Assembly: GCF_029846175.1 (NCBI RefSeq)
Contig: NZ_JARWAC010000004.1
Coordinates: forward strand, 124,001 to 188,000
From: Sphaerisporangium sp. TRM90804
GTDB lineage: Bacteria > Actinomycetota > Actinomycetes > Streptosporangiales > Streptosporangiaceae
DNA: 64,000 bases
Direction of reading: 5' to 3'
The notes beneath the pieces were generated by a model. It saw nothing but the letters and a program-made list of their open reading frames with translations. It was not told the DNA's origin and did no database searches. Shown here in pieces: positions 32,077-37,039 of the stretch. The first letter of the stretch is position 1, and each line of letters begins with the position of its first letter. Both the position numbers and the translations under genes were made by a program.

Positions 32077-34065
32077 CTACCTGCGGTCGTTGCGTTCGAG
32101 GCGGGCGAGGTAGTCGTTGTAGGCGTCCAGCTCGGCGTCGCCGGTGCCGCCCTCCTTGGCGGCGCGCGCGTCGGCGCGGCGGTCGGCGCGCCGGGCGTGG
32201 CGCTCGTCGTCGCGGTACCACTGGAAGGCGAGCGCGATCAGGACGATCAGCGTGGGGATCTCGCCGAAGGCCCAGGCGATGGCCCCGCCGGTGCTCTGGT
32301 CGGACAGCGCGGAGGCCCCCCAGGTGCGGCCGAGCTGGTCGTACCACCCGGAGGCCAGCACCGTGCCCATGTTCATCAGCGCGATGCCGAAGAACGCGTG
32401 GAACGGCATGGTGACGAACAGCAGCAGGAGCCGCCCGACGTACGGCAGCCGGGTGGGCGCCGGGTCGATGCCGATGATCACCCAGAAGAACAGGCATCCG
32501 CTGAGCAGGAAGTGCAGGGTCATCACGATGTGCCCGAGGTGCTCCTCCATGGCCGCCTCGAACAACGGCGTGAAGTACAGGGCGTACGTGGAGACGATGA
32601 ACAGGGCGGTGGCGACGGCGGGGTGGGTGATCACCTTGGCGGCCCGGCTGTGCAGGACCACGGTCAGCCACTCGCGCGGCCCCCGGTCTCCGCGCCGTGC
32701 CACCGGCTTGAGCGCGCGCAGGGCGAGCGTCACCGGGGCGCCCAGCACGAGGAAGATCGGCACGATCATGGACAGCACCATGTGCTCGGCCATGTGCACG
32801 CTGAACAGCACGGGGGCGTAACGCGCGACGCCGGTCTGCGTGACCAGCACCAGGGCGAGCACGCCGATGCCCCAGCTGACCGTTCGGCCGACCGGCCAGC
32901 GGTCGCCGCGGCGCGCCAGCCGTACGACGCCCGCGGCGTAGAGGCCGCCGAGCAGCGCCGCGATCACCGCGAAGAACAGGTCGAACCACCACAGGGTGAG
33001 CAGGTTGCCGACCGAGATCGGCGGCGGGACCAGGTAGCCCAGCAGCTCGAACGCCCGGTCGACCGGCAGGTCGAGCGGCGGCGGCGCGGTGCGTGACAGC
33101 GCCACGGCGACGCCCGTCGCCGCGAGCATGACCAGGGCCTCGGCGGCGGCGAGCCTGGTGAAGGCGCCCGGGCGCCGTGCCGCGACGCCGGGCAGCGTGC
33201 GGCCGCGGTGCCACCAGCCGGCGACGCCCAGCAGGGTGAACAGGGCCGCCTTGACCAGCACCAGCACGCCGTAGGAGGTGGTGAACAGATCTTGGACGGC
33301 GGTGAGGCGGGCCAGCGCGCTGAACAGGCCCGACAGGCCGACGCCGACGAAGCACCACAGCGCCATGCGGGAGAAGCGGTGCGCGGCGACGTCGAGGTGC
33401 GGCTCGCCGCGGAAGGCGTGGGCGCACAGCAGCAGCAGCCCGCCCACCCACAGCGACAGCACCAGCAGGTGCATCGCGACGCTGGTGGTGGCCAGGCCGT
33501 GGTTGGGCGCCGAGGAGGAGTGGCCGGTGAGCGCGGGCGGCAACAGCGTGACCAGCGCCAGCGCCAGCAGGCCGCCGGCGGCGCCCGCGGTGATCGCGCC
33601 CCGGGAGAACAGCGCGAGCGCCGTGGCGAACAGCACGACCAGGGTGAGCGCGATGCCCTGCGAGACCTGGCTGGCGTAGCTGGTCAGCGCCTCGCCGCCG
33701 ACGACCTCGGCGACGGGCAGGCCGAGGGTCTCCGACAGGCTGAACACCATGGTCGAGGCCGCGGCGACCGCCCACACCAGCGCCGCCCACGAAGCTCCCC
33801 GCAGGTAGGCCAGGGCGGACCTGCCGAGCAGGCCCTTGTCGCTGGGCAGCAGGGCGGTGGCGGTGAGCAGCATGCCGACGGTCAGCACGCCGGCGATGTC
33901 CATGGCCAGCTTGGACCCGGGCAGGGCCCAGCGGGTGAGCGTGCCCTCGTCGGGCAGGCCGGGGATGATGCGCGGGGTGGCCGCGCCGCCGGCGAACATC
34001 GCCAGCGCCAGGGCGGCCAGGGCCGCCAGGACGCCGGCGACCGCCAGGCGTGCGGTTCGGCTCAC
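32077..34065 (-). CDS. CopD-CtaG fusion membrane protein
   Basis: A 662-residue polytopic protein. The N-terminal half is a CopD copper-import domain (HLLVLSLWVGGLLLLCAHAF, SRMALWCFVGVGLSGLFSAL). The C-terminal half is a Caa3-type CtaG cytochrome oxidase assembly domain (LFSVHMAEHMVLSMIVPIFL, TLHFLLSGCLFFWVIIGIDP, MPFHAFFGIALMNMG). The many Met and His residues in the helices fit copper handling. The GTG at 34065 overlaps the copC stop in a GTGA, so CopC and this protein are translated together. They probably pass copper to cytochrome c oxidase or into the cell. Confidence 0.92.
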   Translation of the reverse strand: MSRTARLAVAGVLAALAALALAMFAGGAATPRIIPGLPDEGTLTRWALPGSKLAMDIAGVLTVGMLLTATALLPSDKGLLGRSALAYLRGASWAALVWAVAAASTMVFSLSETLGLPVAEVVGGEALTSYASQVSQGIALTLVVLFATALALFSRGAITAGAAGGLLALALVTLLPPALTGHSSSAPNHGLATTSVAMHLLVLSLWVGGLLLLCAHAFRGEPHLDVAAHRFSRMALWCFVGVGLSGLFSALARLTAVQDLFTTSYGVLVLVKAALFTLLGVAGWWHRGRTLPGVAARRPGAFTRLAAAEALVMLAATGVAVALSRTAPPPLDLPVDRAFELLGYLVPPPISVGNLLTLWWFDLFFAVIAALLGGLYAAGVVRLARRGDRWPVGRTVSWGIGVLALVLVTQTGVARYAPVLFSVHMAEHMVLSMIVPIFLVLGAPVTLALRALKPVARRGDRGPREWLTVVLHSRAAKVITHPAVATALFIVSTYALYFTPLFEAAMEEHLGHIVMTLHFLLSGCLFFWVIIGIDPAPTRLPYVGRLLLLFVTMPFHAFFGIALMNMGTVLASGWYDQLGRTWGASALSDQSTGGAIAWAFGEIPTLIVLIALAFQWYRDDERHARRADRRADARAAKEGGTGDAELDAYNDYLARLERNDRR

Positions 34066-34640
34066 GTCTTCTTCCGCATGCTGAGAGCCATGCCGATGCC
34101 GATGCCGGCGATGCCGAAGACGACGATCCACACCCAGACGGGGATGCCGCCGGACTGCTCCTCCCGCCGCGACGCCGGGGTGGCCGCGACGGAGGAGGGC
34201 GCGGCGACGGCGGTCTCGGCGGGGCTCGGGGCCGCCGCCGAGGGGGACGGGGACGGCGAGGGGGCCGCCGCCTCGGGCGCCTTGACGGTGAAGGGGATCT
34301 CGCCCTCGATGGGGTGCCCGTCGGCGGAGACCACGCGCCAGGCGATCGTGTACTCGCCGGAAGGCAGGTCGCCGGAGACCTTCTGGGTGACGACCGGCCC
34401 GTCGACCTCGGGCTTGCCGTCGTGGTAGGCCTGGCCGCCGGCGTCCCGCACCAGGACCACCGGGAACCTGACCGACTCGGTGTAGGTGAGCGTCACCGAC
34501 TCGACGCCCTCCACCGTGGACCCCTTCTTAGGGTCACTGCTCTTCAACGTCGTGTGAGCCAGCGCGGGCGCGGCGAAGGAGGTGCCGAGCACGGCGGCGA
34601 CCACGAACGCGAGCACGGCGGCGAGCGGGGATGTCTTCAT
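34062..34640 (-). CDS. copC: CopC-type copper-binding protein
   Basis: A 192-residue exported protein. The signal peptide ends at APALAHTTLKSS, so the copper-binding His lies at the mature N-terminus, as in CopC. The YcnJ/CopC beta-barrel continues with YTESVRFPVVLV and WRVVSADGHPIEGEIPFTV, which contains the second copper-binding Asp/His pair. A Pro/Ser/Ala-rich linker and a C-terminal membrane helix (PVWVWIVVFGIAGIGIGMAL) anchor it to the membrane. It is coupled to the downstream CopD-CtaG gene. Confidence 0.92.
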   Translation of the reverse strand: MKTSPLAAVLAFVVAAVLGTSFAAPALAHTTLKSSDPKKGSTVEGVESVTLTYTESVRFPVVLVRDAGGQAYHDGKPEVDGPVVTQKVSGDLPSGEYTIAWRVVSADGHPIEGEIPFTVKAPEAAAPSPSPSPSAAAPSPAETAVAAPSSVAATPASRREEQSGGIPVWVWIVVFGIAGIGIGMALSMRKKT

Positions 34641-34833: not shown

Positions 34834-36123
34834 TCACAGGCCGGCGCAGGCCAGAGCGCGGTGGTAGGCGTCGACGCTGGCCTCGTCGTCCAGGACCTCC
34901 AGCATCTCGGCGGCGGCGAGCCAGCTGGCGGCGGTCTTGCGCGTCTGGTGACCGTTCTGCAGGAGCTTCTCGGCCTGGGTGATCTGCTCGATCGCCTCAT
35001 CCCGCTTGCCGAGCAGGATGAGAGCGCGGGAGAGGATCAGCCGGGTCTCCGTGAGCAGGAACCCCTTGCCGTCGTCCAGCATGTCGACGGCCTTGGTCGC
35101 GTGCCCGACGGCCTCCTGCGCCTCACCGAGCATGATCTCGGCATTGGCCAGCCCGGCCAGGCACCTGGCGACGTCGACCACGCTGGCCGCCGACTCGGTC
35201 AGGTCGCGCTTGGCGCGCACCAGCAGGTCCTTCGCCTTCGCGGCCTCGTCCGGGCGCGCCCGCATCAGCAGGACCCCCGTCGCGTTGCGGACCCTGGCGA
35301 GGTTACGGGCGTCGCCGGTCTCGGACTGGATCGCGAACGCCCGCTCCGCCAGGGCGATGGCCTCCTCCGCCTGGCCGACCTCGTCGGCGACGAGCGCGGC
35401 GTTCCAGCACGCGGCGACGGTCGCGCGGGGGGTGCCGAGCATCTCGGCCGCCCCCAGCAGCTCCAGGGCGAACTGCTGAGCCCGCAGCAGGTCGCCACGG
35501 GCGACGTAGGCCGTGAGCAGGGTCGAGCCCAGCTCCATGAGGTCGCTGTTCCAGGACGGGCGCCCGGTGCCGAAGAGCACCTCCTCGGCCACCTGCACCG
35601 CCTCGGTCAGCTTGCCGCGCTCGCGGTAGCACCGGCAGAGGGCGAGCACGACCGCGACCGCGCGCTCTTCGCCGGCCGCCTCGGCGGCGGAGTCGCGAAG
35701 GCGGGACAGCACCTCGATGGCTTCGTCCAGATCGCCGCAGGCCTCGGCCGCGAGAGCGTAGCCGTACCGCGCCTTGTGGCTGAGCGACGGCAGGCTGACC
35801 AGGCCGCCGTCCGAGAGGAGGTCGGCGTAACGGCGCCTGGCCTCGGCGGCCTCCCCGTTGTGCAGGGCGAGGCTCGCGTAGCCCAGGCCCAGCTCCAGTT
35901 CGTGCATCTGCTCGGCGGTGACGCCGTTGATCAGATACGTTATGGAGCAGTCGAGTTTGGCCGCCAGCAGTTCCAATACCGCGGTGGTCGGGGTTCGCTT
36001 GCCGCTCTCGATCAGTGATACATAACTATCCGAGAGTTCGGGGTGGGCCAACTGGGCCTGGGAAAGACCGCGTTGGCGACGAATCGTCTTGATTCGCTGT
36101 CCAATAAGATCTTGACTGGTCAC
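34834..36123 (-). CDS. HTH-TPR regulator (RRNPP-like architecture)
   Basis: A 429-residue protein. Residues ~6-65 are an XRE-type helix-turn-helix (GQRIKTIRRQRGLSQAQLAH, LSDSYVSLIESGKRTPTTAV). The remaining ~350 residues are tandem TPR-like helical pairs with the recurrent A/G/Y spacing (e.g. LGLGYASLALHNGEAAEARR, ARYGYALAAEACGDLDEAIE, VAACWNAALVADEVGQAEEA). This domain order is that of RRNPP peptide-responsive regulators. GTG 36123 is chosen because AGGGG lies five bases upstream; GTG 36129 has no room for a binding site. A secreted peptide gene starts 54 bases away on the other strand. Confidence 0.88.
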   Translation of the reverse strand: MTSQDLIGQRIKTIRRQRGLSQAQLAHPELSDSYVSLIESGKRTPTTAVLELLAAKLDCSITYLINGVTAEQMHELELGLGYASLALHNGEAAEARRRYADLLSDGGLVSLPSLSHKARYGYALAAEACGDLDEAIEVLSRLRDSAAEAAGEERAVAVVLALCRCYRERGKLTEAVQVAEEVLFGTGRPSWNSDLMELGSTLLTAYVARGDLLRAQQFALELLGAAEMLGTPRATVAACWNAALVADEVGQAEEAIALAERAFAIQSETGDARNLARVRNATGVLLMRARPDEAAKAKDLLVRAKRDLTESAASVVDVARCLAGLANAEIMLGEAQEAVGHATKAVDMLDDGKGFLLTETRLILSRALILLGKRDEAIEQITQAEKLLQNGHQTRKTAASWLAAAEMLEVLDDEASVDAYHRALACAGL

Positions 36124-36177
36124 TGGCACCCCTGAAAGATGTAGACCCCGACGGACAGCCCCCGACTGGAGTTAGCC

Positions 36178-36312
36178 ATGCGTCGCTTCCGCCTCGCCGC
36201 TACGACCCTAGCCATCGCGTTTCTCGCCCTTACCGGTACTGGAGCCAATGCTACGACTACAGAAGCCATCTCGTCTTCCGCCCGGGCGGACGTCGTTCCA
36301 GGCTGCTGCTGA
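36178..36312 (+). CDS. Short secreted peptide, candidate signal for the HTH-TPR regulator
   Basis: A 44-codon gene. TGGAG (36167-36171) lies 6 bases before the ATG. The product starts MRRFRLAATT, has a hydrophobic core (LAIAFLALTG), a likely signal-peptidase site after GANA, and a short mature part TTTEAISSSARADVVPGCC ending in two cysteines. Codon use is much richer in A/T third positions than neighbouring genes. It is divergent from the HTH-TPR regulator with only 54 bases between the starts. In RRNPP systems a secreted, processed propeptide next to the regulator acts as the quorum signal; that role here is inference. Confidence 0.7.
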   Translation: MRRFRLAATTLAIAFLALTGTGANATTTEAISSSARADVVPGCC

Positions 36313-37039
36313 TTTGTAACCTTTTCGGTACGTAGAGCAAGACAGGGCAAAGCCCCAGCCCACCACAGAGGAGACATTTCGCCCGGTCAACTCCTCGACC
36401 CGTCGGAGGCGCAAGCTACTCGCCCCCAGCTGCACGTGCAGACGCCCGCTTGCAGAGCGCTGAGCACGGCAACAGCCTCCACTCGGGTGCCGCCGGAGGC
36501 AGGCGGTGACCGGGGCCGGCATACGGCCCGCGTACGATCGCGGCACATCGACGGTCATGGTGACCAGCATCAAGTGAGCATGAGCCTCATCGCTGGTCAC
36601 CACACCCTTGTGCGGCGCCCTGGCCAGGCCGGGCGCACGGGCCGGCTCCTCGACGCCGTCCCCTGGCCCCCCCGGGCCGACGTGATCGGCATTCTGGCCT
36701 CCGGACACCGGACTCATGAACTGAGCGGTGTGGAGCATCGCTACCCGTTCCCCTAACAGGTGTCGAAGCCTGCGCACGCGATTCTGCACATGCGCCTGGC
36801 CTTGCATCTGCACAGTATTCCGCACGGGCGCCCGACGCGCACCCTTCCCCCTTTATTTAATTCCCTGGAGGGGACGATTCCATCGCCGGGGCGAGACAGT
36901 GCCCTTCCCCGTCCGGCGCCGCCGTCACGAGGGCCCCGGACGCGAGCCACCGGCTCTCCGACGCCCCCCGGTCAAGCTGCGGCCCCCCGGTCACCGGTCC
37001 CCCTTTGGCGCTCATGGCCATGCCTGGTGTACTTCGAGG
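36313..37039. other. Long region without a convincing gene
   Basis: 727 bases of lower and uneven GC between the small peptide gene and the xanthine dehydrogenase gene. Open frames on both strands lack GC3 bias and family resemblance. It contains a GAGGAG/CTCCTC pair near 36369-36404, a strong inverted repeat at 36558-36602 and an AT-rich patch at 36850-36870 that may be part of the promoter for the downstream gene. Confidence 0.45.
36558..36602. repeat. 11-bp inverted repeat with 23-base spacer
   Basis: TGGTGACCAGC (36558-36568) and GCTGGTCACCA (36592-36602) are perfect inverted copies. The arm is itself partly palindromic (GGTGACC). It lies 245 bases after the small peptide gene and could be a paired operator or an RNA hairpin. 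Confidence 0.7.

Follow-up and report, generated by a model that had tools for sequence, protein, structure and literature searches.

A divergent gene pair from the soil actinomycete Sphaerisporangium sp. TRM90804, in which an HTH-TPR regulator faces a tiny secreted-looking peptide ending in Cys-Cys (CC), is real, conserved, and protein-coding, and the CC end of the peptide is under constraint at the protein level. We consider it likely that the pair represents an RRNPP-like pheromone-receptor module of the Actinomycetota, with the CC end as a constant anchor and the residues ahead of it as a variable specificity segment. Peptide communication of this form has so far been known chiefly from Bacillus-type bacteria. 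The stretch of DNA analyzed, 64,000 nucleotides long and designated the window, comes from a genome of 8.3 Mb. Features of the pair are collected in Table 1.

Table 1. Features of the regulator-peptide pair, by position in the window.
Feature	Positions	Strand	Basis or remark
HTH-TPR regulator, presumed receptor, 431 aa	34834..36129	-	Pfam; AlphaFold2 model; PlcR-related by profile
TPR array, nine helix pairs, residues 72-428	34846..35916	-	Secondary structure of model
N243 codon, TPR5 helix A position 6	35401..35403	-	Kept in 69/73 CC, 0/10 swapped-tail, 6/17 with no peptide found
A239 codon, TPR5 helix A position 2	35413..35415	-	Kept in 0.90 of 73 CC, 0/10 swapped-tail, 0.41 with no peptide found
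T203 codon, TPR4 helix A position 6	35521..35523	-	Kept in 69/73 CC, 1/10 swapped-tail, 6/17 with no peptide found
DNA-binding HTH_3 domain, residues 13-66	35932..36093	-	Pfam
Gap between divergent starts, 48 bp	36130..36177	.	Probably overlapping promoter and operator
Likely ribosome binding site of peptide gene, GGAG	36168..36171	+	By sequence
Propeptide gene, 44 aa	36178..36312	+	ATG to TGA; translation; divergent frame kept in relatives
Predicted signal-peptide part, residues 1-30	36178..36267	+	Column conservation, 88 CC peptides
Presumed exported part ISSSARADVVPGCC, variable tail	36268..36309	+	Alignment of 88 peptides; pN/pS by segment
Cys-Cys of presumed exported part	36304-36309	+	Invariant in 88 aligned peptides

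The peptide gene translates as MRRFRLAATTLAIAFLALTGTGANATTTEAISSSARADVVPGCC, followed directly by a stop codon, and the probable ribosome binding site lies six bases 5' of its ATG. The first-pass annotation had proposed this frame with this binding site and had pointed to its low GC3, and both hold (GC3 is 0.62, vs. 0.90 in the regulator gene); the 54 bases it gave between the starts must be corrected, as the start codons are 48 bases apart. It had also proposed an A-x-A cleavage site leaving a 19-residue mature part. That site, A23-N24-A25, is possible, but the best-kept A-x-A column among 88 aligned CC peptides is at A30 (..TEA, followed by ISSS..) rather than at A25. We favor cleavage after A30, which would leave 14 residues, although cleavage after A25 could also occur. 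The propeptide has a basic N-terminus, a hydrophobic core, and the A-x-A column, and export is judged from hydropathy; signal-peptide frames throughout this work were recognized by a crude hydropathy filter. By that filter the window contains 21 signal-peptide-like frames of 30-75 residues, of which the peptide gene is the sole one with a CC end. Pfam has no family for the 44-residue peptide, and NCBIfam returned nothing above cut-off for nine peptides of the family or for the regulator. Just beyond the peptide gene, at 36313-36500 on the minus strand, lies the decayed C-terminus (RLHV..RRVEELTGRN..SS, with frames broken upstream) of what we take to be a PucR-like regulator. At 36 of 81 loci an intact copy is present, in convergent orientation to the peptide gene.

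The regulator begins with GTG and matches Pfam families HTH_3 (E 9.5e-11) and TPR_12 (E 1.4e-8). An AlphaFold2 model built with 97 sequences (pLDDT 94.3, pTM 0.86) shows the HTH domain followed by nine TPR-like helix pairs. A profile search matches the regulator to PlcR with an E-value of 1.1e-13, although designed TPR proteins rank above PlcR and matches to unrelated TPR proteins are numerous; NprR is also among the matches. Foldseek searches with the model list the PlcR-PapR7-DNA complex and Rap-pheromone complexes, with moderate TM-scores to RRNPP members, while the top matches are eukaryotic LGN TPR proteins. Because designed TPR and LGN proteins rank first, and RRNPP members reach only moderate TM-scores, the resemblance to PlcR and Rap may in part be generic to any combination of HTH and TPR. 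The source genome encodes a second HTH-TPR regulator (L248, C63:298613-299827), 32% identical to the first, without an adjoining CC peptide.

Relatives of the pair are found more readily through the regulator than through the peptide. A search with the 44-residue peptide recovers it in 6 of 60 relatives, source genome counted, because its signal part is only weakly similar among relatives and its tail has diverged; the regulator is the better probe. The nearest named relatives of the regulator, up to 68% identical, belong to Sphaerisporangium species. Homologs occur in 87 of 150 genomes of the host family (E 1e-60 or better), 42 of 296 genomes of the class (E 1e-50), 16 of 150 genomes of family f20 (E 1e-40), and 5 of 396 genomes of the phylum (profile search, E 1e-60). 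As checks on its reading, the first-pass annotation had named whether homologous regulators keep the small frame next to them, the lack of which would have refuted it, and whether the peptide C-termini align; the outcome agrees with it on both counts. In all 30 of the best family loci, a small frame that starts with basic residues, has a hydrophobic core, and ends in CC diverges from the regulator. In the best 80 of 340 confirmed named candidate loci (the 80-locus set), a divergent small frame is present in every case, with CC ends in 65 and another tail in 15. In the alignment of 88 CC peptides, conservation is seen in the signal part and in the N-x-T..A-x-A stretch, the approximately five residues that precede the end show the highest entropies, and the terminal C-C is invariant. 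The 15 peptides without CC form one lineage; their N-terminal halves are like those of the rest, while most end in a GW..P-like motif. Over the 1,323 kb covered by the 80-locus set, no other CC-ended signal-peptide frame was found more than 400 bp from the regulator; a locus outside the set, L088, has a second CC peptide 2.3 kb away.

Constraint on the peptide is visible in its codons. The 129 distinct CC peptides, 36-71 residues long, use both TGC and TGT for Cys and all of TGA, TAG, and TAA as stops. In pairwise alignments of 28 independent pairs, pN/pS, uncorrected for multiple hits, is 0.52 in the signal part, 0.56 in the linker, and 0.77 in the tail, and the CC codons show no nonsynonymous change against five synonymous ones. 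A chance origin for the small open frame, which its shortness and a GC3 below that of its neighbors might otherwise suggest, is therefore extremely improbable: changes in the CC codons are synonymous, pN/pS is below 1, and both place and sequence are kept in 80 of 80 loci of the best-80 set.

The two Cys codons immediately 5' of the stop suggest a different reading, namely that of a cysteine-responsive leader peptide. Such peptides govern a downstream gene through ribosome stalling. Here the next gene is convergent in 45 of the 79 cases with a gene in view, which leaves those 45 without the same-strand downstream gene that a leader would govern, and on this ground we rejected the reading. It would also leave the signal peptide, the hypervariable tails, and the lineage without Cys unexplained, and we regard it as very improbable.

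The wider family shows both rearrangement of the pair and its loss. A divergent CC peptide accompanies 88 of 122 distinct regulators, and a divergent peptide with a swapped tail accompanies 12 more; one has, at L099:4369-4551, a peptide ending GGGLCCYE, two residues past CC, and the distant regulator at this last locus retains T203 and N243. The remaining 21, mostly in sister clades, have none of these in the divergent place, although L046 has a convergent CC peptide and L047 is at a contig end. Fourteen of 20 loci from family f20 contain a CC frame. In Streptomyces goshikiensis (L204), an annotated hypothetical protein encoded downstream of the regulator on the same strand ends KDIPLCC, and in Streptomyces sp. 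NBC_01707 (L206) a peptide ending DGDLPLCC lies 1.9 kb downstream. The pairing thus survives rearrangement, the CC peptide having moved downstream in some distant relatives and lying convergent in L046. The S. goshikiensis locus also encodes a second small secreted-looking protein without CC (L204:6878-7090) directly after the CC peptide, and cytochrome P450 and SARP-type (BTAD) genes lie nearby. At two loci (L063 and L070) the complete regulator-peptide pair occurs twice in tandem, with a different tail belonging to each, and two others (L031 and L073) carry two consecutive regulators with one CC peptide, the second regulator being only 43-44% identical to that of the window. At L165 the peptide was found, while the regulator reading frame was not delimited in the scan. 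No peptide was found near ten sister-clade regulators (L093, L095, L097, L098, L101, L103, L104, L107, L108, and L117), and T203 or N243 is changed in most of the sampled rows of this clade; these regulators are possibly eavesdroppers or users of another ligand. Among plasmid records, 16 have relatives, of which 14 are from Streptomyces; two of the four Streptomyces plasmid loci opened (L205 and L207) have no CC peptide. Phage records gave one weak match, with no CC frame there, and the pattern used on IMG/VR contigs found no relative. In another class, five genomes encode related regulators with divergent tiny frames ending in FPWP/YPWP-like motifs or FPGP; of two further loci, L258 has no such frame, and in it, as in L259, the match is limited to the C-terminal half of the regulator.

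The distance from start to start is 44-69 bp across the 80-locus set, and a sequence such as AAGATGTA was seen by eye to be common to the intergenic gaps of relatives. A consensus scan of the 48-bp gap in the window found no promoter; judged from the gap lengths of the set and the shared sequence, the gap probably holds an overlapping promoter and operator. On the other side, homologs of copC and ctaG/copD (32077-34640) lie 3' of the regulator and on its strand. Within 8-kb flanks of the 80-locus set, copC occurs in 79 loci and ctaG/copD in all 80. These neighbors, together with a CC end that could bind copper, favor the alternative that the peptide is a secreted effector (an antimicrobial, or a thiol or copper binder) under control of the regulator, which would itself sense something else. 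However, neither copC nor ctaG/copD was detected by tblastn (E 1e-5) in 24 far loci, many of them with CC peptides, and the swapped-tail lineage has no CC and yet retains the copper neighbors at its loci in the 80-locus set. Hypervariable tails, and groove residues that track the CC end (see below), also suit a ligand better than an effector, which we consider an unlikely though not negligible reading. A role in copper biology was set aside as a general explanation, since the genes are absent from the far loci and patchy in 60 mid-range loci (copC in 31, ctaG/copD in 40), some of the loci that do have them being without a peptide. Other neighbors vary by lineage, and no common target or shared cargo appears among the neighbor families tallied (for 65 proteins, the first 25 of 32 families; for 72 proteins, the first 25 of 94). 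Nor does the pair have a dedicated exporter, protease, or importer next to it. Ten SBP_bac_5 binding proteins encoded in the source genome are candidates for import; import proteins of this type are common in bacteria.

We compared alignment columns among 73 regulators with CC peptides, 10 with swapped tails, and 17 with no peptide found, counting L207 among the last and leaving out the second regulators of two tandem pairs (L031_106 and L073_29). Sixty-eight columns are kept in at least 90% of the 73 CC regulators, with mean retention of 0.90 in the swapped-tail group and 0.87 in the group without peptide. Three columns, N243, A239, and T203, are clear outliers in retention (Table 1), although they were chosen after a scan of all columns. 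Placed by TPR register, all three would lie on the inner face of the TPR array, positions 2 and 6 of helix A being those that we take to face the groove. TPR4 positions 9, 12, and 13 and TPR5 positions 9 and 13 are among the most variable of the core set. Four CC regulators, all of one lineage, have Glu at position 243, and in all four cases the peptide has His before CC. In the other class, the residue at T203 is Ile or Val. Receptor positions therefore change together with the peptide end. A tree of 102 regulators places all ten of the true swapped-tail rows within one clade of 13 (SH-aLRT 99), so that the signal at T203, A239, and N243 rests on few independent events. A partial Mantel comparison of tail with groove residues gave p 0.008 for the best of 25 sets, which is not significant after correction. 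We infer that the peptide is probably the ligand of the regulator, and the receptor positions that change with its end add support.

In the mechanism we propose, the 44-residue propeptide would leave the cell by the general secretion route, where its signal peptide would be cut off, perhaps with further trimming. The C-terminal segment, with its Cys-Cys end and free carboxylate, would accumulate until an oligopeptide importer takes it back up. Inside, it would bind the inner groove of the TPR array, where T203, A239, and N243 of TPR4-TPR5 would hold the constant CC end while the variable residues ahead of CC confer specificity. Binding would alter the regulator's action on DNA in the 48-bp region at the least, and so feed back on the signal; the regulator probably acts elsewhere too. 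Since neighbors are not common across lineages, we favor a module that stands alone and feeds back on its own divergent promoter. The steps of export, processing, import, and binding are deduced, as are the direction of regulation and the targets. That regulators and peptides are paired strictly one to one, and that the two adjacent Cys could form a disulfide, would also suit a peptide that acts within its own cell, the regulator gauging secretion or redox state through unexported or re-entering propeptide with no signaling between cells. Hypervariable tails, however, are what would be expected if the signals of neighbors must be told apart, and we think such private sensing improbable, more so than the secreted effector. 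For the pheromone-receptor module, a more speculative extension can be drawn: a peptide language spanning the phylum, in which actinomycetotal HTH-TPR receptors read tiny exported peptides with at least three end types (CC, GW..P-like, and FPWP/YPWP-like), the end being a fixed address that TPR4-TPR5 would hold and the preceding residues being the word. The CC pair might even be redox-gated, forming a disulfide outside that cytoplasmic thiols open after import, and so report, in addition to density, that the peptide has come back into a living cell. We offer this extension tentatively, as one that may well prove wrong.

Should the pair work as proposed, peptide signaling through TPR receptors spans actinomycete families, antibiotic producers included. 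Each peptide sequence would then be a ready synthetic inducer, for example for S. goshikiensis near its cytochrome P450 and SARP-type genes, and a family that combines a constant end with a hypervariable segment would suit the learning of receptor specificity.

Among known systems, PlcR-PapR of the Bacillus cereus group is alike in having an HTH-TPR receptor adjoining a small propeptide. In PapR the propeptide is small and the signal lies at the C-terminus, as is proposed here. The present pair differs in its nine TPR pairs and 431-residue receptor, its divergent gene order, its CC end, and its actinomycetotal host. Compared with NprR-NprX and Rap-Phr, the HTH domain here matches the DNA-binding kind, and we know of no counterpart in those systems to a hypervariable tail with an invariant CC. 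Those systems, according to PMC11343458, combine a TPR receptor, as here, with a Sec-exported propeptide bearing the pheromone at its C-terminus, as is predicted here. PMC10075063 gives a five-part signature for RRNPP systems (propeptide of 10-100 residues, Sec export by SignalP with maturation outside the cell, receptor of 250-500 residues, TPRs, and adjacent genes), from a survey with RRNPP_detector that covered Firmicutes and viruses. That signature, by which the novel subfamilies of the survey were recognized, describes this pair also: the propeptide has 44 residues and the receptor 431, TPRs are seen both as a Pfam match and as helix pairs, and the genes are adjacent. Four of the five parts are thus found by computation, and the fifth, Sec export, is predicted from anatomy alone. 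The RRNPP-type architecture suggested in the first-pass annotation is borne out to that extent, with the frame conserved and export judged by hydropathy; we propose that the pair would work like an RRNPP system. RRNPP signaling is presented as a Firmicutes system, and actinomycete signals as typically small molecules, in PMC10075063, PMC4748050, PMC9765709, PMC11343458, PMC13220807, and PMC12849477, the first of which describes the signals of Actinomycetota as typically enzyme-made. Our searches of the open-access literature turned up neither CC-ended peptides nor pairs of the RRNPP type in actinomycetes, subscription journals and preprints lying mostly outside the scope of that search. The gamma-butyrolactone systems of Streptomyces (ArpA/AfsA type), as treated in PMC4748050 and PMC13220807, are similar in serving cell-density signaling in actinomycetes, but their signal is an enzyme-made small molecule rather than a peptide and their receptor is of another type. 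Set beside all of these, the present pair is new in its host phylum, in the invariance of its Cys-Cys end, and in having end types that vary together with receptor residues.
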